Of a DNA stretch of 64,000 nt, positions 10,167-47,621 are shown piece after piece. The position numbers and the translations under genes are program-made. The notes beneath the pieces are model-generated. The model was not told where the DNA came from, searched no databases, and saw nothing but the letters and a program-made list of their open reading frames with translations. Source of the DNA: Flavipsychrobacter sp. (GTDB taxonomy: Bacteria > Bacteroidota > Bacteroidia > Chitinophagales > Chitinophagaceae); assembly GCA_017849575.1 (NCBI GenBank), contig JAFIGV010000003.1, forward strand, positions 1-64,000, read 5' to 3'. Position 1 is the first letter of the stretch. The number at the start of each line of letters is the position of its first letter.

Positions 10167-10697
10167 ATGGTTCAGGTACACGACAAAAAATTCAGACCCT
10201 TCATCAGCAGGGAAGCCATACAAAAAAGAGTGGCAGAGCTGGGCCGTCAGATCGATCATGACTATGAGGGACTGCGCCCGCTGTTCATTGCTGTGCTCAA
10301 CGGATCATTTGTGTTTGCTTCCGATTTATTTCGATGCATTACGATAGAAGCCGAAATCTCTTTTATTAAACTTGCCTCTTACAAAGGCACTACATCAACG
10401 GGCAATGTGGTGACGGCCATTGGCATGGAAGAAAATCTCCACCAACGCCATGTTATCTTGCTGGAAGATATTATTGATACCGGTAAAACGCTGAGCGCCT
10501 TCGTGCCCGAACTGTTGTCGAGACAGCCCGCCTCACTGCGCATTGCCAGCTTTCTTACCAAGCCCGAAGCGTTGAAGTATGATATCAAAGCAGACTACGC
10601 CGGCTTTGAGGTGCCCAATAAATTTGTAGTGGGCTACGGACTGGATTATGACGGCCTCGGTAGAAATTTACCAGAGCTCTATGAACTTGCAGAATAG
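10167..10697 (+). CDS. hpt: Hypoxanthine phosphoribosyltransferase
   Basis: This 176-residue purine salvage enzyme makes IMP (and probably GMP) from hypoxanthine or guanine and PRPP. The PRPP-binding motif VILLEDIIDTGKTLSAF is clear near residue 90-106. FIAVLNGSFVFASDLFR and EISFIKLASYKG are the family's N-terminal flexible-loop region, and FVVGYGLDYDG is the base-binding segment near the end. The length is normal. The start follows the glucosaminidase stop by two bases, so translation is probably coupled. The 3' end lies 11 bases from the convergent IS3-like gene. Confidence 0.95.
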   Translation: MVQVHDKKFRPFISREAIQKRVAELGRQIDHDYEGLRPLFIAVLNGSFVFASDLFRCITIEAEISFIKLASYKGTTSTGNVVTAIGMEENLHQRHVILLEDIIDTGKTLSAFVPELLSRQPASLRIASFLTKPEALKYDIKADYAGFEVPNKFVVGYGLDYDGLGRNLPELYELAE

Positions 10698-10708
10698 ACA
10701 ATCCCTCT

Positions 10709-11824
10709 TTAACCCTGAACCGAATCGGCCAGCATAGCACTAACCTGCCACTCAAGTTGCAAAAAATCCTGTACACCATCCGGCTGATAGCGATGGCGTA
10801 AATGGGTTTCCATCTCTTCGATAGCCTGAAGGTTTTCCGGCTTATTGAGCGAAAAAGTATGAAGCGCCATTTTGTGCTGCCATACCCAGCGCGTAAGCTC
10901 ACGTGCCGAAAGCACCTCTTTTCCGGGCACACGCAGTTTTTTGGGCAGGCCATTCTCCACAGCCGCCCGTTCCAGAAAACCGAGCACATGGTCAATAGTT
11001 ACCTTTCCGGTTCCACATACCGCATTCACCGGCTCCGCAGCTCCGTCGGCAAGTAAACAGAGTACCCACCAGGCACGGTCATCGCCGCCGGCAAACCGAC
11101 CTTCGAGCAGGACAATGTTCCAGACAGCGCCGGTAGTGTCTCTGCGCCTTATGGCTGTGGGCACATGGGCAGCTTCGGGCGCCTCCGGCTGCGCAGGCTC
11201 CAAGCCGTTTGCCTTCTCCCATCGCGTATTCGACCGCTTCCTTTCCAGGTACACCATTCCATCGCGATATACCCGTTTGATCTGTTTGCGGGTCCAGTCG
11301 GGATGTTGCTGCAACAGCAGTTTATAACAGTCTTCAAACTCCCGGCTTCGGTCTTCGCGGATCACCGCTACCAACGCTTCATAGACCATGTAATCTTCGG
11401 CCTCTGGCTTTCGTGGTTTGTAGCCATATTGAGCCTCGTCCATGCCGGCTATAGCACATGCTTGTGCAACCGTAAGCGTGTAACGTTTGATGAGCGCTGC
11501 GACGATCTTCTTCGAAAACTGACGCGAGGGATCTACACCGGCAAGTGCATTGACCAACATTTTGTACCGTTCAGCTATCTCAGGACCTGCCTTCTGTATA
11601 AGATCCGGACGTGAGGTTTTAGGCGTATGCCGGGGTGCCGGCGACTTCAGTTCCCGGGCGGCTTTCACCTCCTCTTCTATATACCTGAATTCATCAATCC
11701 AATTGTATAAAGTAGCCCGGGAGATCGAGGCTTCGCGACAGATTTCCTTCACCGTCTTCTGCCGCGAAAACTTGTCGCGCACCCATTGCTTGCGCTTTTC
11801 TTCGTCGAAACGATAGGTATTCAT
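10709..11824 (-). CDS. IS3-like transposase derivative lacking catalytic aspartates
   Basis: This 371-residue protein reads like IS3-family OrfA and OrfB joined in one frame. Residues about 1-45 are a transposase-type HTH (KTVKEICREASISRATLYNWI). About 115-205 matches the OrfB N-terminal region (LTVAQACAIAGMDEAQYGYKPR, then KQIKRVYRDGMVYLERKR). About 235-355 aligns with the integrase core. The first Asp is replaced in WNIVLLEGRF, the DNG of the second Asp motif reads PGK (LRVPGKEVLS), and only the Glu region (KPENLQAIEEMETHLR) is kept. The frame is intact and no terminal inverted repeats or target duplication are visible. I infer a catalytically dead, possibly domesticated DNA-binding protein. 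A rival view is a decaying transposase that by chance has no stop codon. Confidence 0.7.
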   Translation of the reverse strand: MNTYRFDEEKRKQWVRDKFSRQKTVKEICREASISRATLYNWIDEFRYIEEEVKAARELKSPAPRHTPKTSRPDLIQKAGPEIAERYKMLVNALAGVDPSRQFSKKIVAALIKRYTLTVAQACAIAGMDEAQYGYKPRKPEAEDYMVYEALVAVIREDRSREFEDCYKLLLQQHPDWTRKQIKRVYRDGMVYLERKRSNTRWEKANGLEPAQPEAPEAAHVPTAIRRRDTTGAVWNIVLLEGRFAGGDDRAWWVLCLLADGAAEPVNAVCGTGKVTIDHVLGFLERAAVENGLPKKLRVPGKEVLSARELTRWVWQHKMALHTFSLNKPENLQAIEEMETHLRHRYQPDGVQDFLQLEWQVSAMLADSVQG

Positions 11825-11917
11825 GAGCGCAAATTTAGACGGCCTGTCTATTAATGGGCAAGCTCTCCGCTATATTTAATTGTTAGGAATAAATGTATTA
11901 GGCAGTATTCTTCATCC

Positions 11918-12928
11918 TCAGGTTACAGACTTGAAGACAGTATAGCGCAGCGAAACTTCCAATAGCAGCGATATCAACGCCAGCAGTGCAAAAGGAAAGA
12001 ATAGCTCTGCGTAGTGTTTATAGCTGCTTACTTCAATTTTTGTCTTCTCCAGCTTATCAATATCGCCGTAGATAGTTTTAAGGGTTGAATTGTCGGTAGC
12101 ACGATAATATTTTCCCCCGGTTTCGGTGGCTATCTTTTTCAACAGTGCTTCATCTATCTGCACCTCTTGCATTTGCTTTTGCATTCCAAAAGGCGTCTGC
12201 ACCGGATAGGGTGCCATTCCGCGGGTACCGATTCCGATGGTGTACACCCGCACCTTGTAGGCCTTGGCCACTTCCAGCGCCAGTTCCGGGCCCACTTTCC
12301 CAACATTGTTTACACCATCCGTGAGCAAAATAATTACCTTGCTCTTTCCGTTCGACCTGCGAATGCGATCTACTGCGGTGGCCAGCCCGTCGCCAATAGC
12401 GGTACCATCTACCAACATTCCACTTTTGATGTTGGCGAGTTGCTCTTTTAGCACATCATGGTCAATGGTGATGGGGCACTGGGTAAAGCTTTCGCCGGAA
12501 AAGATCACAAGTCCGATGCGGTCTGTAGGGCGACGGTCCACAAAATCGGATGCAACTTTTTTTGCGGCCTCTATACGGTTTGGTTTAAGGTCTTCGGCCA
12601 GCATACTGCCCGATACATCCACCGACAAAACCATATCTATACCCTCGCTGTCGATGTTCTCCGTTACATTGCTCGATTGCGGCCGCGCCAATGCGACGAT
12701 CATGGCGGTAAGGGTGAGCATGCGTAAGAACACGAGTACAGGACGAAACCGTACCCGCCAGCCGGGCGACACCTTGCGGAGGCTCTGTGTGGTAGTGAGT
12801 CTCAGTGCGGGATGGTTGCCTGCGGCGGGACGATAATGCCACCAAAGCAACAGGGGAATAAATGCCAGAAGTGCAAAAAAAGCCGGGTGGGCAAAGCTGA
12901 TATGTTTCCAATCCATCAATGCGTTCAT
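11918..12928 (-). CDS. batA: BatA-like VWA-domain membrane protein
   Basis: This 336-residue protein has two N-terminal membrane helices (about 13-28 and 62-80), a von Willebrand A domain and a C-terminal helix (about 310-328). The VWA metal site is intact: DVSGSM, and the Thr of the DGTAIGDG loop. This is the BatA architecture of the Bacteroides aerotolerance operon, whose proteins sit in the inner membrane and affect stress and oxygen tolerance; the molecular function is not settled. It overlaps the BatD-like gene by four bases (ATGA). BatB and BatC are not next to it but at 36.9-38.7 kb. Confidence 0.88.
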   Translation of the reverse strand: MNALMDWKHISFAHPAFFALLAFIPLLLWWHYRPAAGNHPALRLTTTQSLRKVSPGWRVRFRPVLVFLRMLTLTAMIVALARPQSSNVTENIDSEGIDMVLSVDVSGSMLAEDLKPNRIEAAKKVASDFVDRRPTDRIGLVIFSGESFTQCPITIDHDVLKEQLANIKSGMLVDGTAIGDGLATAVDRIRRSNGKSKVIILLTDGVNNVGKVGPELALEVAKAYKVRVYTIGIGTRGMAPYPVQTPFGMQKQMQEVQIDEALLKKIATETGGKYYRATDNSTLKTIYGDIDKLEKTKIEVSSYKHYAELFFPFALLALISLLLEVSLRYTVFKSVT

Positions 12929-13875
12929 GGTTGCTGTGTGGTTTGGGTAACGGTCGGAATAGTTTCGCTCACAAACTGACGGCTTTGATCCATAGCCTGT
13001 GTATGCTCCTGAGGCAGAGGTTGTGCTTTGGCAAATTTTGCGAGGTCAGCCGTATAGAGAATTTGTGCCAGACGGTCATAGTGCGGTCGCAGTTCCGGAT
13101 GACCCATTGCTTTCTGCAATAGTTCGTCTGTGGTCAGTTCCAGGGCCGGGGTTCTAAAGCGCTCTTCGATATAGCTGCGCAGAATGTCGGTGAGCTGCAC
13201 ATAGTATTCCTTGATCCTTCCGGCCTGCCAGAGCTGCTGTTGTTCGAGCGCTGAAAGCTGCCGCAATGTTTTCTGTTGCAGGGTTTCCGCCGGTCCTCGT
13301 TCCACAACCGGTGCAGCAACTTTCTTATTTTTTCTAAAATAGTAGATGATAAAAATGGCCAGAAGGATGAGCAGCAAACCGCCGCCGATGAGCGGTAAAT
13401 AATCCCGCCAGCTTCGCTCGATGGTGATGATGTCTTTGATCCCCTTATATGGCTGTGTGGTATCTACCGCTATCGTCTGTACCAGTACGTCAAAGCTATC
13501 TGTAGGCAGGGTATAGGCAGCACCATTTGCGGGTATCACAGGAAAATGAAACGACGGGATGCGGAATATACCGCTGTCGAAACCTGTGATCAGCAGTCTT
13601 TGCTTCAGCGTCACCTGGTCGCCTTGCTTCAGCGTGTCTATTTTTCCGCGTTCCACCACTTCCAGCGTATTGAAAGTATCGGGTATTGCTGCCCATTGCA
13701 GGCGGCTGTCTTTCAGGTTGTGGGTGGCTTCTATAAACAGCTTGATCTGATCGCCCACAGCGATCCGGTTGGCATCGACCCTTGCTTTCACGCTGGCCTG
13801 TTGGGCCCCGGCCGCGCCCGCGTTGAGCAGGATGCCGAGGCAAAGCAACCATACGATATGTAGCCCGTTCTTCAT
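12925..13875 (-). CDS. BatD/DUF4381-like membrane-anchored protein
   Basis: This 316-residue protein has a signal peptide (about 1-25, ending GAAGAQ) and a periplasmic beta-rich domain (26-160). This domain is of the kind seen in BatD-like proteins: VDANRIAVGDQIKLFIEA, then GIFRIPSFHFPV. A membrane helix follows (LPLIGGGLLLILLAIFIIYYF, about 158-178). The cytosolic helical tail holds the DUF4381-like pattern (YYVQLTDILRSYIEERF, ALELTTDELL). It overlaps batA and abuts the DUF58 gene, so the three form one operon. By family knowledge it is a partner of the VWA proteins; the direct role is unknown. Confidence 0.8.
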   Translation of the reverse strand: MKNGLHIVWLLCLGILLNAGAAGAQQASVKARVDANRIAVGDQIKLFIEATHNLKDSRLQWAAIPDTFNTLEVVERGKIDTLKQGDQVTLKQRLLITGFDSGIFRIPSFHFPVIPANGAAYTLPTDSFDVLVQTIAVDTTQPYKGIKDIITIERSWRDYLPLIGGGLLLILLAIFIIYYFRKNKKVAAPVVERGPAETLQQKTLRQLSALEQQQLWQAGRIKEYYVQLTDILRSYIEERFRTPALELTTDELLQKAMGHPELRPHYDRLAQILYTADLAKFAKAQPLPQEHTQAMDQSRQFVSETIPTVTQTTQQP

Positions 13876-14744
13876 TATCTGCCTTTAAAAAAGCCCTGTA
13901 ACAATTTTACGTAGTCATCGTCTGTCTTCAGTGTAAGCAAGGATGCGCCGCTTTTGCGGAAGGCTTGCATACAATATTGCCGGTGCTGATCGAAACCTTC
14001 GGTGTAGGATTTCCGCACCTGCTTGTCGTCGGTGTCCACCCACTGCAGGGCAGCCGTTTCTGCGTCTATGACCTGCACCAGTCCTGCCGCGGGCAGTTCA
14101 CGATCAGCACGATCATAAACCTGCATACCCACAAGGTCATGTTTTCTTGCCGCAAGCTGTAAGGATTTCTCATACGGTTCGCTGACGAAATCGCTTAGCA
14201 AAAAAGCGATCGTTCTTTTCTTCAATACGTTGTTGAGATAGTCGAGCGCCACCTGCACCTTTGTGCCGCCCCGCTGTACGGGCTCCAGCGCAATCAGCTC
14301 GCGGATGATGCGCAGAATATGGCTTCTGCCCTTCTTGGGAGGAATAAATTTCTCAACCTTATCACTGAAAAAAATCACCCCTACTTTATCATTATTGGTG
14401 GCCGCAGAAAAAGAAAGAACGGCGCAAATCTCTGTGATCAGTTCTCTTTTCAGACGCTGTCGGGTACCAAAAAGTGCGCTGCTGCTCACATCCACCAGCA
14501 ACATTACTGTGAGCTCGCGCTCTTCTTCGAAAACCTTTACAAAGGGGTGCGAAAACCGTGCAGTTACGTTCCAGTCAATAGATTTCACATCATCGCCGGG
14601 TGTGTACTCGCGTACCTCGCTGAAAGACATGCCACGGCCTTTAAATGCAGAATGATATTCGCCTGCAAAGATATGATTGCTCAATCCCCGGGTTTTGATC
14701 TCGATACGCCTCACCCGCTTTAAAATCTCCGCTGTTGTAAGCAT
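13875..14744 (-). CDS. DUF58 domain protein of the Bat operon
   Basis: This 289-residue cytosolic protein carries the DUF58 signature GDDVKSIDWNVTARF near residue 50. A VWA-like fold follows (VMLLVDVSSSALFGT), in which DVSSS keeps the metal-site pattern, and FLLSDF marks a later strand. DUF58 proteins are normally encoded next to a MoxR-type AAA+ ATPase and to BatA. Here the Bat neighbours follow with overlapping codons, but no moxR is present upstream; the next gene is divergent. It is the first gene of the three-gene operon. Confidence 0.9.
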   Translation of the reverse strand: MLTTAEILKRVRRIEIKTRGLSNHIFAGEYHSAFKGRGMSFSEVREYTPGDDVKSIDWNVTARFSHPFVKVFEEERELTVMLLVDVSSSALFGTRQRLKRELITEICAVLSFSAATNNDKVGVIFFSDKVEKFIPPKKGRSHILRIIRELIALEPVQRGGTKVQVALDYLNNVLKKRTIAFLLSDFVSEPYEKSLQLAARKHDLVGMQVYDRADRELPAAGLVQVIDAETAALQWVDTDDKQVRKSYTEGFDQHRQYCMQAFRKSGASLLTLKTDDDYVKLLQGFFKGR

Positions 14745-31920: not shown

Positions 31921-32865
31921 ATGGAAAACATTGCAACTACGCCAAAGGATGAACAACGCCTGGCGAAATTTGAAGAGTGGGTGCAGAGCGGCGAAGCCAT
32001 AGAGCCGCGCGACTGGATGCCGGAAGCCTACCGCAAACATTTGATACGGCAGATTTCCCAGCATGCACACTCGGAAGTAATAGGAATGCAGCCGGAAGGC
32101 AACTGGGTGACACGCGCCCCATCGCTGCGCGCCAAGCAAATACTACTGGCAAAAATTCAGGATGAAGGCGGTCATGGTCTGTATCTCTACAGCGCAGCCG
32201 AAACACTCGGCATCACACGCGATGAGATGATCGAACAACTGCATGCGGGCAAAGCCAAATATTCTAACATCTTCAACTACCCCACGCTCAACTGGGCAGA
32301 CATTGGTGCTATTGGCTGGCTGGTGGATGGAGCTGCCATCGTGAATCAGGTATCGCTGCAACGCACTTCCTTCGCGCCTTATAGTAGAGCCATGGTGCGC
32401 ATTTGCAAAGAAGAAAGTTTCCATCAGCGTCAGGGTTATGAGATCATGGCAAAGATGATGGCAGGCACAGAAGCGCAACGCGAAATGGCACAGGATGCTA
32501 TGAACCGCTGGTGGTGGCCCTCGCTGATGATGTTCGGTCCGCACGATGGCGATTCACCGCACTCTGCAGATGCATTCCGCTGGAAAATTAAAAGGCAGAC
32601 CAACGATGAACTTCGCCAAAAATTTATTGACAAAACAGTGCCGCAGGCAGAGCTGATAGGATTGACCGTGCCCGACCCGGATATGAAATGGAATGAAGAA
32701 AAGCAGAGCTACGATCATGGTCGTATCAACTGGGAAGAATTTTACCGGGTGATCAACGGACACGGACCCTGCAACAAACAACGCATGGACCATCACAAAA
32801 AAGTACATGCCGACGGCGCCTGGGTGCGCGAAGCTGCAGAAGCCTACAGAGCAAAAATGAAATAG
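31921..32865 (+). CDS. paaA: Phenylacetyl-CoA epoxidase subunit PaaA
   Basis: This 314-residue catalytic subunit of the multicomponent di-iron monooxygenase makes the 1,2-epoxide of phenylacetyl-CoA. The ferritin-like helices carry the iron ligands: Glu-xx-His in [17 protein letters not shown] and [21 protein letters not shown]-like residues ([33 protein letters not shown], in part) match PaaA. Its partners PaaB, PaaC and PaaD follow in order. The gene is preceded by the octamer repeat and not by an obvious promoter. Confidence 0.96.
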
Positions 32866-32919
32866 CTCAAGTATAGGTCCATTTCAGTAAATCAGTAGAA
32901 ACAACTAAAAATATCAAGC

Positions 32920-33210
32920 ATGTCACAAGACAATCAATTTCCAAGCTGGGAGGTCTTTATGCAAAGCCGCCCCGGCGCCAACTTCATTCATCAGGGTAGC
33001 ATCCATGCATCTGATAAGAAGATGGCGATACAAAATGCACGCGATACCTACAGCAGACGAGGAGAAGGCACCAGCATATGGGTAGTACCCACAGAAGCGA
33101 TTGCGGCATCCACTACAGAAGATGCGGATATGCTCTTCGATCCTGCAAACGATAAGATCTATCGCCTGCCTACATTTTATACCATGCCGGAAGGCGCAAA
33201 ACATATCTAA
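32920..33210 (+). CDS. paaB: Phenylacetyl-CoA epoxidase subunit PaaB
   Basis: This 96-residue small subunit bridges PaaAC pairs in the known complex. WEVFMQSRPGANFIHQGSIH and DTYSRRGEGTSIWVVPT match PaaB over its full length. It starts 54 bases behind paaA and ends two bases before paaC, consistent with one transcript. Confidence 0.95.
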   Translation: MSQDNQFPSWEVFMQSRPGANFIHQGSIHASDKKMAIQNARDTYSRRGEGTSIWVVPTEAIAASTTEDADMLFDPANDKIYRLPTFYTMPEGAKHI

Positions 33211-33212
33211 CC

Positions 33213-33971
33213 ATGACACAACAGGAAGCTTTATTCAAATACCTGCTGCGCTGGGGCGACAATGCGCTCATTCTTTCCCATCGCCTTTCAGAATGGTGCA
33301 GCTACGCACCCTTTATAGAAGAAGACCTGGCGCTCACCAACTTTGCGCTGGATATGATTGGAAGAGCACAGGCATTACTAAAATATGCGGGTGAAGTAGA
33401 AGGCAAGGGAAACACAGAAGACCTGCTGGCTTATCGCCGCAGTGAACGGCAGTATTACAACAATCTGTTGATGGAGCAGCCCAATGGAGATTTCGGCGTA
33501 ACGATGGTGCGGCAATTGTTCATTTCGGCTTTCGAAAAAGATTTGTTTACAGAATTGCAAAACAGCCGCGACACTACGCTTGCCGCCATTGCAGCCAAGA
33601 CGCTAAAAGAAGTGCGTTACCATCTGGAACATGCCGCCAACTGGGTCATCCGCCTGGGCAATGGCACAGATGAAAGCCATGAGCGTGTGCAGAAAGCAGT
33701 GAATGATCTCTGGATGTTTACCGGCGAATTGTTTGAAATGGATGAAGTGGATCGCCAACTGCTTTCCGATGGCATTGCGGTAGATATCAGCAGGATGCAG
33801 GAGCGATGGACCGGATACATTAATGATGTGCTGCAGGTGGCTACCTTGCAAAAGCCGCAGGACGAGTTTATGCAGACGGGAAGCCGCAACGGCATACATA
33901 CAGAACACCTGGGACATTTGCTCAGCGAAATGCAATACCTGCAACGCGCTTATCCTGATGCACAATGGTAA
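33213..33971 (+). CDS. paaC: Phenylacetyl-CoA epoxidase subunit PaaC
   Basis: This 252-residue structural subunit is a ferritin-like partner of PaaA. YLLRWGDNALILSHRLSEWC and LALTNFALDMIGRAQALLKYA are the conserved N-terminal helices; RYHLEHAANWVIRLGNGTDESHER is the central one. It overlaps paaD by seven bases. Confidence 0.95.
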   Translation: MTQQEALFKYLLRWGDNALILSHRLSEWCSYAPFIEEDLALTNFALDMIGRAQALLKYAGEVEGKGNTEDLLAYRRSERQYYNNLLMEQPNGDFGVTMVRQLFISAFEKDLFTELQNSRDTTLAAIAAKTLKEVRYHLEHAANWVIRLGNGTDESHERVQKAVNDLWMFTGELFEMDEVDRQLLSDGIAVDISRMQERWTGYINDVLQVATLQKPQDEFMQTGSRNGIHTEHLGHLLSEMQYLQRAYPDAQW

Positions 33972-34459
33972 CAACCACAGCATACGACAGAGAGCAGATT
34001 CTGGATTTGCTTTCTGCCATTGCCGATCCTGAAATTCCGGTCGTGACCATTCAGGAAATAGGGATGCTCCGCGATGTAGTAGTAAGTGATCAGGGTGTGG
34101 AAGTAATACTCACACCTACTTACACCGGTTGTCCGGCTATGGGCATCATCGAAGCCGATATAAAGGCAACGTTGGAAACTCATGGTATTGCACCGGTGAG
34201 TGTAAAGATGATTTACGACCCCGCCTGGAGTACCGACTGGATGAGTGACGGAGCCAAAGAAAAAATGCGCAGGTATGGTATTGCTCCGCCTGCGCATTCT
34301 TCCTGCGGCGATATTGCTGCAGCAGAAAGGCAAGTAGCCTGTCCACGCTGCGGCTCCCAAAATACGGAAACCATCAGCCGGTTTGGTGCCACCGCCTGTA
34401 AAGCATTATACCGATGCCTCGACTGTAAAGAGCCGTTTGAGTATTTCAAGTGCCATTGA
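33965..34459 (+). CDS. paaD: PaaD, assembly factor of the phenylacetyl-CoA epoxidase
   Basis: This 164-residue protein has a MIP18/DUF59 domain (about 8-95: LLSAIADPEIPVVTIQEIGML, PTYTGCPAMGIIEADI) and a zinc-ribbon C terminus (CPRCGSQNT and YRCLDCKEPF). PaaD is thought to help insert iron or an Fe-S cluster into the epoxidase system. The reductase gene paaE that normally follows is absent; the next gene is on the other strand. Confidence 0.93.
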   Translation: MVTTTAYDREQILDLLSAIADPEIPVVTIQEIGMLRDVVVSDQGVEVILTPTYTGCPAMGIIEADIKATLETHGIAPVSVKMIYDPAWSTDWMSDGAKEKMRRYGIAPPAHSSCGDIAAAERQVACPRCGSQNTETISRFGATACKALYRCLDCKEPFEYFKCH

Positions 34460-36939: not shown

Positions 36940-37947
36940 ATGTTTCGCTTTCAGCATATTGATCACTTATACTTTCTTGCCTTATTGCCGGTATTGGCCA
37001 TTCTTTTTGCCGGCATGCTGGTGTGGAGAAAAAACAAACTCAGGAAACTGGGCGAGCAAAGACTGGTCTCCGCGCAATTGCTGGGTTTCATTCCTGGCCG
37101 GCCCATGCTCAGGTTCATGATGGTGCTTGTTGCTTTTGCCCTGCTTGTTATCGGTTGGGCCAATCTTCAAAAAGCCTCCGGACCGGAAGAGATACAACGC
37201 AAAGGTGTGGATGTAATTGTGGCGCTCGATGTGAGTAAGAGCATGCTGGCAAAAGATATACAGCCGGACAGACTATCGCGTGCAAGGCAGTTAGTGATGA
37301 GCATGATGGATAAGTTGAAGAACGATCGTGTAGGCCTTGTGGTCTTTGCCGGGCGCGCCTATCTTCAGGTGCCGCTGACGATAGACTACAGCGCCATGAA
37401 AATGATGCTTCAGAACGTAAAACCCGACCTTGTTCCCACGCAGGGTACCGTCATCAGCGAAGCGATAGAACTGGCGCAGCAATCCTTTTCTCAAAACGAA
37501 AAAAAATACAAAACTCTGCTGATCATTTCCGATGGCGAAGACCATGACGAACGAGCAGAAAGCGAAGCCCGTGCAGCAGCATCAGCAGGCATCATCATCC
37601 ATACCATCGGTATTGGTTCTCCGGAAGGCACTACCCTTTTTGACCCGGAAACCAATGCCGTGAAACTGGACGAACAAGGCAATCCCGTAGTGAGCCGACT
37701 TAATGAACAGGAGCTTAAAGAAATAGCTGCCGCAGGAAACGGTACCTACAGCCTGCTACGCAATGCCGATGCCGTTGCCGGAAAGCTGGTGAATGAAATA
37801 GACGGCATGGAGCAGAAAAGTCTGGGCGCTGTAGTATATAGCAGTTACAGCAGTTACTTCCAGTATTTTCTGGGTATAGCACTGGCACTGCTGGTTGCAG
37901 AATGGATGCTGCCCGGTAGTAAACTAAAAACCAAAAAGAAGTCATGA
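36940..37947 (+). CDS. batB: BatB-like VWA-domain membrane protein
   Basis: This 335-residue protein has two N-terminal helices (about 10-27 and 58-75), a VWA domain and a C-terminal helix (about 308-325). The metal site reads ALDVSKSM, and the later Thr and Asp residues (GTVISEA, ISDGEDHDE) are present. The layout and the TPR partner downstream mark it as BatB. It overlaps batC by four bases (ATGA). BatA is at 11.9 kb, so the Bat genes are split into two loci here. Confidence 0.88.
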   Translation: MFRFQHIDHLYFLALLPVLAILFAGMLVWRKNKLRKLGEQRLVSAQLLGFIPGRPMLRFMMVLVAFALLVIGWANLQKASGPEEIQRKGVDVIVALDVSKSMLAKDIQPDRLSRARQLVMSMMDKLKNDRVGLVVFAGRAYLQVPLTIDYSAMKMMLQNVKPDLVPTQGTVISEAIELAQQSFSQNEKKYKTLLIISDGEDHDERAESEARAAASAGIIIHTIGIGSPEGTTLFDPETNAVKLDEQGNPVVSRLNEQELKEIAAAGNGTYSLLRNADAVAGKLVNEIDGMEQKSLGAVVYSSYSSYFQYFLGIALALLVAEWMLPGSKLKTKKKS

Positions 37948-38729
37948 TGAGCAGAGCAGGTAGTATCATCATTCTGTTGCTTTGCGTGCTGGCACAGCCG
38001 GCGATGGCCCAGAGAACCCAGGTGCGCAAAGGCAACGATTTGTATCAACAAAAAAAGTACAAGGAAGCCGCGGCAGCCTATCAGCAGGCGCTTACTAAAA
38101 ACCCGGTTTTTACACCCGGAATTTTTAACCTCGGCAATGCGCTCTATCAGCAAAAAAACTTCGACGCTTCGAGGAAAGCGATGAACGCTGCTGCAAAAAA
38201 TACTACAGACAAACAGGTGAAGGGAAACGCCAGCTATAATATCGGTAACACGTACATGGCCGAACAAAAATGGGAAGAGGCAATAAACGCGTACAAAGAG
38301 GCATTGCGCCTTAATCCTAATGACGAAGCTGCGAAGTACAACCTCTCTTATGCCAGGGCCATGATGAAAAAAAATCAGGGCGGCGGCGACAAAAACAATC
38401 AGGATAAAAACAAGGATCAGCAGAATAAAGACCAGAATCAGAAAGACAACAAAGAGCAAAACAAAGACCAGCAGAATAAAGATCAGCAAAACCAGGACAA
38501 GGAAAAGCAGCAGGACAAAAAGGACCAGCAACAAGATCAGAAAGATGAGCAACAAGATCAGAACCAGCAGAAGAATCAGGACGATCAGCGACCACAGCCA
38601 CAGCCCAGCAAGCTCAGCAAAGAGCAGGCTGATCAATTGCTTGATGCCTTAGCGCAGGAAGAAAAAAAGCTTCACGACAAAAAGGAAAAAGGCAAGGCAG
38701 TGAAAATAAAAATGGACAAGGACTGGTAA
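37944..38729 (+). CDS. batC: BatC-like TPR protein with Gln/Lys/Asp tail
   Basis: This 261-residue protein has a signal peptide (about 1-22, ending PAMAQ) and three or so TPR units (about 30-135: NDLYQQKKYKEAAAAYQQAL, FNLGNALYQQKNFDAS, YNIGNTYMAEQKWEEAINAYKEAL). Then comes a low-complexity stretch of Lys, Asp, Gln and Asn (about 140-215, repeated DQQNKDQ). BatC proteins are periplasmic partners of the VWA proteins. The tail is repetitive at DNA level (AAGACCAGCAGAATAAAG-like units), so its length probably varies between strains. Confidence 0.85.
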   Translation: MMSRAGSIIILLLCVLAQPAMAQRTQVRKGNDLYQQKKYKEAAAAYQQALTKNPVFTPGIFNLGNALYQQKNFDASRKAMNAAAKNTTDKQVKGNASYNIGNTYMAEQKWEEAINAYKEALRLNPNDEAAKYNLSYARAMMKKNQGGGDKNNQDKNKDQQNKDQNQKDNKEQNKDQQNKDQQNQDKEKQQDKKDQQQDQKDEQQDQNQQKNQDDQRPQPQPSKLSKEQADQLLDALAQEEKKLHDKKEKGKAVKIKMDKDW

Positions 38730-44549: not shown

Positions 44550-45950
44550 ATGTATTCAATTGACGAAACGATAGTGGCATTGGCAACAGCACCGGGCGAG
44601 GGTGCCATCGGTATTATTCGGCTGAGCGGCACGGAAGCTATCGCTATTGCAGATAAGATTTTTACCGGTAAGCAACTCGCAGCACAGCCCAGTCACACCC
44701 TTCATTTCGGTCGGATAAAAAAGAGCTCAGGCGAAATACTGGACGAAGTAGTGGTAAGCCTTTACCGCGCGCCGAAAAGCTATACCGGTGAAGACGTGGT
44801 GGAGATCAGTTGTCATGGGTCGAACTATATTCTTGAGCAGGTGATACGGTTGTGTACCGATCATGGCGCACAAATGGCAAAGCCCGGCGAATTTACACAG
44901 CGGGCATTTTTAAATGGCAAACTCGATCTTACACAGGCAGAAGCTGTTGCCGACCTCATCTCCAGCCACAGCGGTGCTGCTCATCACGCTGCCATGCACG
45001 CGCTCCGCGGCGGTTTCAGCAACGATCTTAAAATCATCCGCGATCAACTCATACAGTTTAGCGCGCTTATAGAGCTGGAGCTCGACTTCAGCCAGGAAGA
45101 TGTGGAATTTGCAGACCGGACAAGGCTTCAGGCACTCCTGCAAGAAGCGAGTGAGAAGATACAGCGACTGCTCGACTCCTTCAGTCTGGGCAATGCCATA
45201 AAGCAAGGCATAAAGGTGGCAATAATAGGCAAGCCAAATGCAGGCAAAAGCACACTACTCAATGCACTGCTCCATGAAGAGCGCGCCATTGTGAGCGATA
45301 TTGCCGGCACCACACGCGATACGATAGAAGAAGCACTCAATATTAACGGTGTGCTTTTTCGATTGATAGACACAGCAGGTATTCGTGAACACAGCACCGA
45401 TGCCATAGAAAACATTGGCATTGCCCGCAGCCGGAAGGCATTGGCAGAAGCCGATGTGGTAGTGTACCTGTTCGATCTTGCTGCCCTACAGCAAGAAGAA
45501 GTGCAAGCCGCTCTTGAAATGAAGAACGAAGCACAGAAGCCCTTTATCTTCGCCGGCAACAAAGCCGATCTTGCATTATCTGCCTTCGATGGTGCACAAA
45601 ATCTTCAGCACTTCAACGAACTTTCTGCCCTGCTACCTCCCGAAAGTCTGCTTTTATCTGCAAAAAATAATGGAGCACAAGTGCTGCGGGAAGAACTCTT
45701 CAACCGTGTGATTCGCGGCAGTTTTCAAACAGAAGGAACCATCATTACCAACGCACGCCATTTCGCGGCACTTCAGGCAGTGCAACAGTCGCTGATGGAT
45801 ATAAAAAATGGTTTGGCCACCCATCTTTCCGGCGATTTGATCGCCTTAGATATCCGCCGCTGTCTGCATTACTTAGGGGAGATCACTGGCGAAATCACCA
45901 CAGAAGACAAGCTCGACTATATTTTCAGTAAGTTTTGTATCGGAAAGTAA
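44550..45950 (+). CDS. mnmE: tRNA modification GTPase MnmE
   Basis: This 466-residue protein forms, with MnmG, the enzyme that makes the carboxymethylaminomethyl group on wobble U34. The N-terminal folate-binding domain starts ETIVALATAPGEGAIGIIRLSG. The G domain (about 215-370) has [31 protein letters not shown] and AGNKADL, and the protein ends with the catalytic CIGK. The last bases encode an intact C terminus even though a mobile element begins directly behind the stop. Confidence 0.96.
   Translation: MYSIDETIVALATAPGEGAIGIIRLSGTEAIAIADKIFTGKQLAAQPSHTLHFGRIKKSSGEILDEVVVSLYRAPKSYTGEDVVEISCHGSNYILEQVIRLCTDHGAQMAKPGEFTQRAFLNGKLDLTQAEAVADLISSHSGAAHHAAMHALRGGFSNDLKIIRDQLIQFSALIELELDFSQEDVEFADRTRLQALLQEASEKIQRLLDSFSLGNAIKQGIKVAIIGKPNAGKSTLLNALLHEERAIVSDIAGTTRDTIEEALNINGVLFRLIDTAGIREHSTDAIENIGIARSRKALAEADVVVYLFDLAALQQEEVQAALEMKNEAQKPFIFAGNKADLALSAFDGAQNLQHFNELSALLPPESLLLSAKNNGAQVLREELFNRVIRGSFQTEGTIITNARHFAALQAVQQSLMDIKNGLATHLSGDLIALDIRRCLHYLGEITGEITTEDKLDYIFSKFCIGK
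45933..45950. other. Candidate attachment site at the mnmE 3' end
   Basis: The final 18 bases of mnmE (ending GGAAAGTAA) lie directly ahead of the integrase module. SGI1-type islands in Enterobacteria are known to integrate into the last 18 bp of the same gene. No second copy of this stretch was seen in the window, so the other attachment half would lie beyond base 64000. This is inference from position. Confidence 0.35.
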
Positions 45951-46016
45951 CTATCTTTCCCTTTTTTCTTAAATGATTGTTTTTGTTGGGTTTTAGCTGA
46001 TTTATCCTTCTCTTTT

Positions 46017-46157
46017 TTGTTGCCCAACTCTACTTTTTTACCTATATTTGTTGCCTAATTGTTGCCCAGATTTGTTGCCCACAAATCAGGCAACAGTCGG
46101 GAGAGAACATGCTACATACAGCTACAAGCTGCAACATGGAGCAACAACAGGCAACAA
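46017..46157. repeat. TTGTTGCC repeat cluster at the element's left end
   Basis: TTGTTGCC occurs at 46017, 46048, 46059 and 46072. Inverted forms GGCAACA and GGCAACAA occur at 46089 and 46150, and GCAACAA at 46141. The last copy touches the ATG of the excisionase-like gene. They may be binding sites for the integrase, the excisionase or both. Confidence 0.65.
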
Positions 46158-46158
46158 A

Positions 46159-46518
46159 ATGAGCAGTAACATTCGTCTTCAAAAAACTTGTCAGCACTGC
46201 GGTAACAGATTTACCGCAAAGACTACTGTTACACAGTTTTGCTCAGATACCTGTGCCAAACGAGCATACAAGCAGCGGAAGCGGAACGAAAAAATTGAAG
46301 TGGCCATCAAGGAAGAAACCGAGAAAGCACTTTACAACCCTGCCATTGCTCAAAAGGAATTTCTAACCGTTGAAGAAGCCTGCCAGTTAATCAACGCCAG
46401 CCGATGGACCATTTACAGGCTCATTGAGAAAGGCGAACTCAAAGCAGGTAAACTGGGCAGAAGTACCCGCATTCCCCGGGCAGCTATCAATGAATTATTC
46501 AAACTAACTGAAGCATGA
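46159..46518 (+). CDS. Zinc-ribbon/excisionase-type HTH protein
   Basis: This 119-residue protein joins a short Cys-rich module (CQHCGNRFT and FCSDTCAKRAY, residues 11-38) to an excisionase/MerR-like winged HTH at about 65-115 (LTVEEACQLINASRWTIYRLIEKGEL, GRSTRIPRAAINELF). The start at ATG 46159 is taken because the upstream extension is built of the TTGTTGCC repeats. It overlaps the integrase start by four bases (ATGA), so it is likely the recombination directionality factor or a regulator of the integrase. Confidence 0.8.
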   Translation: MSSNIRLQKTCQHCGNRFTAKTTVTQFCSDTCAKRAYKQRKRNEKIEVAIKEETEKALYNPAIAQKEFLTVEEACQLINASRWTIYRLIEKGELKAGKLGRSTRIPRAAINELFKLTEA

Positions 46519-47621
46519 CAGTAACACTTAGGCAACGCAAAAAGGGCGATAAAATCAGCCTGTATCTTGATTACTACAGTGATGGTAAAAGAGATTACGA
46601 ATACCTGCAACTCTACCTGATACCCGAGCCGGAGAAAGGCAAGCTCACTAAGGAGCAGAAGGAAGAGAACCGCAAAACACTGGTATTGGCAGAAGCCATC
46701 AGGTCGAAGCGTTTGTTACAGATAAAGAATGAAGAATACGGCTTTCGTGATACCGATAAAGCCAAAGGCAGTTTCATTGCCTACTTTGAACGCCTTACAG
46801 AAAAAAGGAGAAACAGCCAGGGTAATTGGGGCAATTGGGATAGCGTATTGAAACACCTGAAGAAGTTTGCCAAGAACGGAGCATCATTCAAAGACATTGA
46901 TAAAAACTGGCTGGAAGATTTCAAGAACTACCTCCAGTATGAAGCTAAGAGCAAAACCAATAAACGCCTTTCGCAGAACTCTCAATCATCCTATTTCAGC
47001 AAGGTAACAGCAGCTTTGAAAGAAGCCGTAAAAGAAGGCATCATCCAAACCAACCCGGCAAACCAAGTGGAAGGCATCAAAGCTGATGATCCTGATAGGG
47101 AGTTCCTCACATTGGAAGAACTACAGGCAGCCGCTAAAGTGGAATGTGAAATGCCGGTGTTGAAAGATGCTTTCATCTTCTCTGCATTAACGGGATTGCG
47201 TTGGTCAGATATTGAAAAGCTGGTCTGGTCAGAAGTGCAGCACTCCGAGCAGTCAGGGTATTACATCCGTTTCAGGCAGAAGAAAACAAAGGGAGCAGAA
47301 ACCTTGCCCATTTCGGAACAGGCTTTTCAGTTGTTAGGCAATAGAAGAAAGCCCGAGGATAAAGTATTTGAAGGATTGTATTACAGTGCCTGGCATAACT
47401 TGAAACTCCGTGAATGGGTAATGAAAGCAGGTATCACAAAACACATCACCTTTCACTGTGCAAGGCATACCTACGCCACCCTTCAAATTACATTGGGTAC
47501 AGACATTTACACTGTTTCAAAACTCTTAGGACACAGGCACCTGAAAACAACCGAAATTTACGCTAAGGTGATTGACCATAAAAAACAGGAGGCAGCGAAT
47601 AAAATCAAATTAGACTTATAG
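46515..47621 (+). CDS. Tyrosine site-specific integrase
   Basis: This 368-residue recombinase has an N-terminal arm-type domain (MTVTLRQRKKGDKISLYLDY), a SAM-like core-binding domain (about 90-180) and the catalytic domain. The catalytic residues are visible: Arg in LTGLRWSDIEKL, then HCARHTYATL (His-x2-Arg/His), GHRHLKTTEIYAKV (His) with the nucleophile Tyr in TTEIYAKV. It belongs to the Bacteroidota integrases of CTn/ICE type. Lying 0.6 kb from the mnmE stop, it should mediate insertion there. Confidence 0.94.
   Translation: MTVTLRQRKKGDKISLYLDYYSDGKRDYEYLQLYLIPEPEKGKLTKEQKEENRKTLVLAEAIRSKRLLQIKNEEYGFRDTDKAKGSFIAYFERLTEKRRNSQGNWGNWDSVLKHLKKFAKNGASFKDIDKNWLEDFKNYLQYEAKSKTNKRLSQNSQSSYFSKVTAALKEAVKEGIIQTNPANQVEGIKADDPDREFLTLEELQAAAKVECEMPVLKDAFIFSALTGLRWSDIEKLVWSEVQHSEQSGYYIRFRQKKTKGAETLPISEQAFQLLGNRRKPEDKVFEGLYYSAWHNLKLREWVMKAGITKHITFHCARHTYATLQITLGTDIYTVSKLLGHRHLKTTEIYAKVIDHKKQEAANKIKLDL

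Follow-up and report, generated by a model that had tools for sequence, protein, structure and literature searches.

The gene analysed here lies on the minus strand, directly behind a bat operon, in a 64,000-nt stretch of Flavipsychrobacter sp. DNA that we call the window and that belongs to a genome of 3.6 Mb (G000). The gene, the parts of its product and the features around it are listed below.

10709..11824, minus strand: gene for a single-frame OrfA-OrfB protein of 371 aa, a domesticated, catalytically dead IS3-type transposase
11687..11824, minus strand: OrfA-type helix-turn-helix (HTH_Tnp_1), residues 1-46, with the lowest dN/dS within the gene (0.06)
11225..11572, minus strand: OrfB N-terminal helical region with WTRKQIKRVYRDGMVYLERKR, residues 85-200, with 27 residues invariant in nine orthologues
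10805..11131, minus strand: RNase H-like core that lacks the DDE triad, residues 232-340, dN/dS 0.21
11111..11113, minus strand: codon of V238, where the first catalytic Asp would stand; nine of nine orthologues have V, A or G
10925..10927, minus strand: codon of P300, where the second catalytic Asp would stand; nine of nine orthologues have P, A, F or V
10817..10819, minus strand: codon of E336, aligned to the catalytic Glu; E in only three of nine orthologues
11836..11850, minus strand: putative operator, the palindrome TAGACAGGCCGTCTA as read on the gene's strand
11830..11837, minus strand: TAAATTTG, a putative promoter box of the Bacteroidota -7 type (TAnnTTTG) that overlaps the palindrome
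11918..14744, minus strand: bat operon (DUF58, membrane protein, BatA/vWA), upstream on the same strand; a conserved neighbour in G003 and G006

The original prediction described an intact 371-codon frame that keeps the IS3 layout, and this description holds, the helix-turn-helix (HTH) being recognised by Pfam and the rest of the layout by profile alignment. The HTH_Tnp_1 model matches residues 3-60 with 41 bits (cut-off 24.1); Pfam detects the HTH only and gives no match to the RNase H-like core. When nine family members were compared with nine active IS3 transposases, profile against profile (hhalign), 335 columns were aligned with a probability of 99.8 and an E-value of 2.5e-27. Against the NCBIfam IS3 model, whose curated cut-off is 160 bits, the window protein scores 48 bits over residues 10-207 and the family members scanned score 36-80 bits, below the cut-off; the orthologue of G032 matches the model at positions 1-348 of 369. 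A phmmer search of solved structures returned no significant match. The reading frame is continuous in all nine orthologues, without an orfA/orfB pair joined by -1 frameshifting.

Both catalytic Asp residues had been predicted to be gone from the window protein, and V238 and P300 indeed stand at their positions. None of the nine orthologues has kept either Asp: only V, A or G occurs at the first position, and only P, A, F or V at the second. The accompanying claim, that nothing but the Glu region is left, fits the window protein, in which E336 is aligned with the catalytic residue. In the family the Glu is not conserved: the residues at its place are E, E, D, R, R, E, D, G and N, and six members out of nine have replaced it. 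Because a joint tree sets the family apart from active IS3 with 100% support, the loss of both Asp residues is most simply explained as ancestral. An AlphaFold model built from three sequences, of low confidence (mean pLDDT 59), predicts a core with strands and helices in the order of the RNase H fold. For residues 228-371 of the model, retroviral integrase cores are the top structural matches (Z 8.3, 104 residues aligned, rmsd 3.2), but Foldseek gave no match at E below 0.001.

How widely is the gene distributed? Its absence from relatives was to count against domestication; orthologues were found in eight further species genomes, making nine genomes of five genera in all, and every frame is open. 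Five carriers belong to the window's genus (G000, G001, G002, G003 and G006) and four to other genera within its taxonomic family, one to each (G032, G397, G094 and G142), each genome holding one orthologue. A gap in score sets the group off: its weakest member scores 258 bits and the next matches, intact IS3 transposases with intact catalytic motifs that are present in several copies in G245 and G383, score 51 bits. The distribution is patchy, with 9 carriers among the 396 genomes sampled from the taxonomic family, and many losses or transfers are therefore needed. No orthologue turned up in G004 and G005, two incomplete genomes that belong to the genus of the window, and samples of the order and class, about 400 genomes, contained no member beyond the taxonomic family. 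The supported splits of the gene tree match a species tree built from BatA, MnmE and SprA, and weak nodes differ.

Is the gene simply a decaying insertion sequence, inactivated and with its frame still open by chance? The loss of the catalytic residues and of the inverted repeats would fit such a remnant. As predicted, terminal inverted repeats are absent, no inverted or direct repeat of at least 12 bp being found in 10600-12000; the TGTAAGNNCCCC tip has no exact or one-mismatch copy in this interval, and the only match with two mismatches falls within the gene and is no more than chance would give. Nevertheless, nine intact frames with 35-54% identity to P0001 and more than 50 invariant residues speak against chance, as do the single copy per genome and the mode of selection. 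In the one close pair available, G003 and G006, dN/dS is 0.19 (NG86) or 0.17 (YN00) at a dS of 0.7-0.8, well below the values near 1 that would argue against domestication, and the gene is therefore not decaying; 14 neighbouring genes of the same pair give 0.02-0.18. By region, the ratio is 0.06 in the HTH, 0.13 in the OrfB N-terminal part, 0.21 in the core and 0.62 in the second linker. A decaying remnant is thus extremely improbable. Identical copies with inverted repeats elsewhere in the genome had also been named as a mark against domestication, and none exists: a search of the whole window genome found no second copy of the gene and no other IS3 match. Low dN/dS, orthologues in relatives and the lack of other copies in the genome make domestication as a host gene well supported.

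The expectation of conserved synteny with hpt was not borne out. The gene lies directly behind DUF58-membrane protein-BatA in three genomes (G000, G003 and G006) and behind other genes elsewhere: sprA in G001, mnmE in G002, a HAD hydrolase gene in G094, an alpha-2-macroglobulin gene in G397, a CHU_C-domain gene in G032 and, at 36 bp, a MoxR ATPase gene in G142. No orthologue whose surroundings were read adjoins hpt, and in G003 and G006 an ispE-like gene is found on that side; a linkage with hpt was rejected, and the adjacency in the window is incidental.

These placements could instead point to a regulator of the operon that it ends, co-transcribed and adjusting the expression of bat or moxR in particular. 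The position behind BatA in three genomes and behind MoxR in a fourth favours this, and the MoxR/bat link, seen in two separate placements, is suggestive only. On the other hand, the gene is placed elsewhere in G001, G002, G032, G397 and G094, and the bat operons inspected in G001, G002, G032, G397 and G142 do not include it, so that a role of this kind appears unlikely. The seven differing immediate contexts in nine genomes might also suggest a gene that is still mobile, moved in trans by another transposase or element. This we regard as very improbable, since terminal repeats are lacking, the gene is single-copy everywhere and its GC content is mostly host-like: it broadly tracks the host across carriers (0.38-0.58), and in the window genome it is 0.54, above that of the neighbouring genes (0.47, sd 0.04). 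Moreover, the 3' neighbour of the bat operon varies also in genomes without the gene at that place, and ordinary rearrangement therefore suffices. A mobile, phage or plasmid gene was likewise considered and rejected, no relative being present in viral contigs; plasmids and one short phage record held only ordinary IS3 at about 25% identity.

Some other features of these neighbourhoods may be recorded here. The bat genes of the window form two clusters, DUF58-membrane protein-BatA (11918-14744) and a vWA-like gene with a TPR-like protein gene (36940-38729). A tyrosine recombinase (Phage_integrase, SAM_5) is encoded downstream of mnmE in the window (44550-47621), and similar genes occur downstream of mnmE in four other genomes (L065, L066, L068 and L069); the mnmE 3' end therefore seems to be a place where integrative elements insert in several genomes. 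At 31921-34459 the window carries a cluster that by eye resembles phenylacetate degradation (paa) genes, and a gene similar to one of this cluster follows sprA in contig 8 of G000 and in G003 (L094, L095).

The promoter of the gene may offer a clue to its function. A palindrome, TAGACA-N3/4-TGTCTA, stands 24-27 nt before the ATG in five of the nine orthologues, despite differing neighbours, and matches this motif at 12 of 12 positions in G032, 11 in G000 and G397, and 9 in G001 and G094. In the window it overlaps a TAnnTTTG box, which we take to be the Bacteroidota -7 promoter type; such a box occurs at -13/-14 in five of nine orthologues, compared with 9 of 170 other upstream regions at -15 to -12. 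The core pattern TAGACN(5-6)GTCTA has a single exact occurrence in the window genome, at the promoter of the gene, and six in the 5.4-Mb genome of G032, one of them before the orthologue. Four orthologues, those of G002, G142, G003 and G006, lack the palindrome; in these genomes the gene follows another gene at 26-42 bp. In G001 and G094 taken alone the match is not significant against shuffles (0.10 and 0.07), and shuffle p-values overstate the palindrome, because it was noticed after looking, with the motif defined on the same data, and because the five genes are homologous. No regulon is visible in the window genome, where the other near-matches (sites with one mismatch) all lie inside ORFs. 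In G032 there is one further intergenic site, a perfect TAGACAAGTCTGTCTA palindrome 30 nt before a TetR-like gene (L105), which resembles the putative operator and may well be the TetR-like gene's own. Altogether, the sequence evidence for an operator at the promoter of the gene is good but not conclusive.

Might this operator be a relic of the transposon? Its likeness to active IS3 ends exceeds that of shuffles, but when 170 real upstream regions are used for comparison only G000 and G032 stand out; descent of the operator from a transposon end is possible and not supported consistently. In active IS3 elements from this taxonomic family (L025, L027 and L030) the ends have the form TGTAAGT.CCCC and continue with an inner part that is close to AGACAG or GGACTG.

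Another conceivable role is that of a silencer of IS3 kept by the host, a dead protein that occupies transposon ends or poisons transpososomes. OrfA and OrfB do inhibit transposition of ISSau2 and IS3 (PMC5771124), and in two carriers, G006 and G094, there are IS3 copies that score over the curated cut-off. The likeness of the palindrome to active IS3 ends is, however, inconsistent when set against real upstream regions, and the gene is kept in G000, G001, G002 and G142 without any other IS3 match; because of these four carriers, silencing of IS3 is quite unlikely as the present function.

Our preferred explanation, and the probable one, is that the gene encodes an IS3 transposase that has been domesticated, has lost catalysis and serves as a DNA-binding protein that regulates its own gene; the proposal in the original prediction of domestication as a DNA-binding protein is thus supported, with DNA binding as the best inference for its role. 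An IS3-family transposase would have been fixed as an ordinary host gene in the common ancestor of the carrier genomes, and would have lost the chemistry of transposition (both Asp residues, with a non-conserved Glu) and the ends of the element. It would have kept the HTH for DNA binding, the helical N-terminal part of OrfB and an RNase H-like core that retains its fold. With the HTH kept and catalysis lost, DNA binding would be expected, and its placement over a promoter would give repression. IS3 OrfA and OrfAB bind the terminal repeats (PMC5771124, PMC3219604), and in the IS3 ends the internal part is protein-binding and the outer part catalytic (PMC3219604). As transposases bind their own ends, the protein would, most likely, bind the palindrome that overlaps its own promoter in a sequence-specific manner and repress itself, and it may have further host targets. 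Only tentatively, we extend this to a conversion in one event in a Chitinophagaceae-like lineage, giving a stand-alone, palindrome-binding transcription factor whose operator and promoter would travel along with it between genomic contexts, the operator coming from that part of the former transposon end to which the protein bound.

How does the gene compare with known systems? Nearest to it in this analysis are intact IS3 elements from its own taxonomic family, which carry the motifs DFM...DNGPEF...QNAYIER and which we take to be possibly of the IS407 subgroup. With the IS3-family transposases (NF033516) it has in common the OrfA HTH, the helical N-terminal part of OrfB, and the order and predicted fold of the RNase H-like core; unlike them, it lacks the DDE triad, the terminal repeats and the C-terminal YN..RPH..L region, consists of one continuous frame, is single-copy and falls below the 160-bit cut-off. 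For eukaryotes, the conversion of transposases into regulators is well established. RAYTs descend from IS200/IS605 and are HUH (Y1) enzymes that retain catalysis and have REP targets, and TldR descends from TnpB nucleases. TnpA-REP/RAYT has been called the first prokaryotic domesticated transposase (PMC8266576) and resembles the present gene in being transposase-derived and outside an ordinary insertion sequence, whereas the gene described here is DDE-derived and has lost catalysis. TldR proteins are RNA-guided transcription factors (PMC13418256) and likewise nuclease-dead descendants of a transposon protein used as regulators; their ancestor, however, is a nuclease and no transposase, whereas the present gene descends from the transposase itself and the putative binding is by an HTH. 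CSB-PGBD3, a eukaryotic domesticated DDE transposase (PMC3459987), provides the parallel of a DDE-type transposase reused as a DNA-binding regulator, as we infer here, but it belongs to a different transposase superfamily and is fused to host exons. The bacterial cases of transposase-to-regulator conversion that we found in the literature are HUH-type (RAYT) and TnpB-derived (TldR), none being IS3-derived. The gene belongs to a known kind, the domesticated transposases; it has lost its DDE chemistry and likely has a regulatory role.

Why would such a family escape annotation? Automatic IS3 models score it below their cut-off and Pfam sees the HTH only, which amounts to a blind spot of annotation. 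With nine orthologues, a fixed loss of both Asp residues and a candidate operator, the DDE version of this conversion becomes directly testable.
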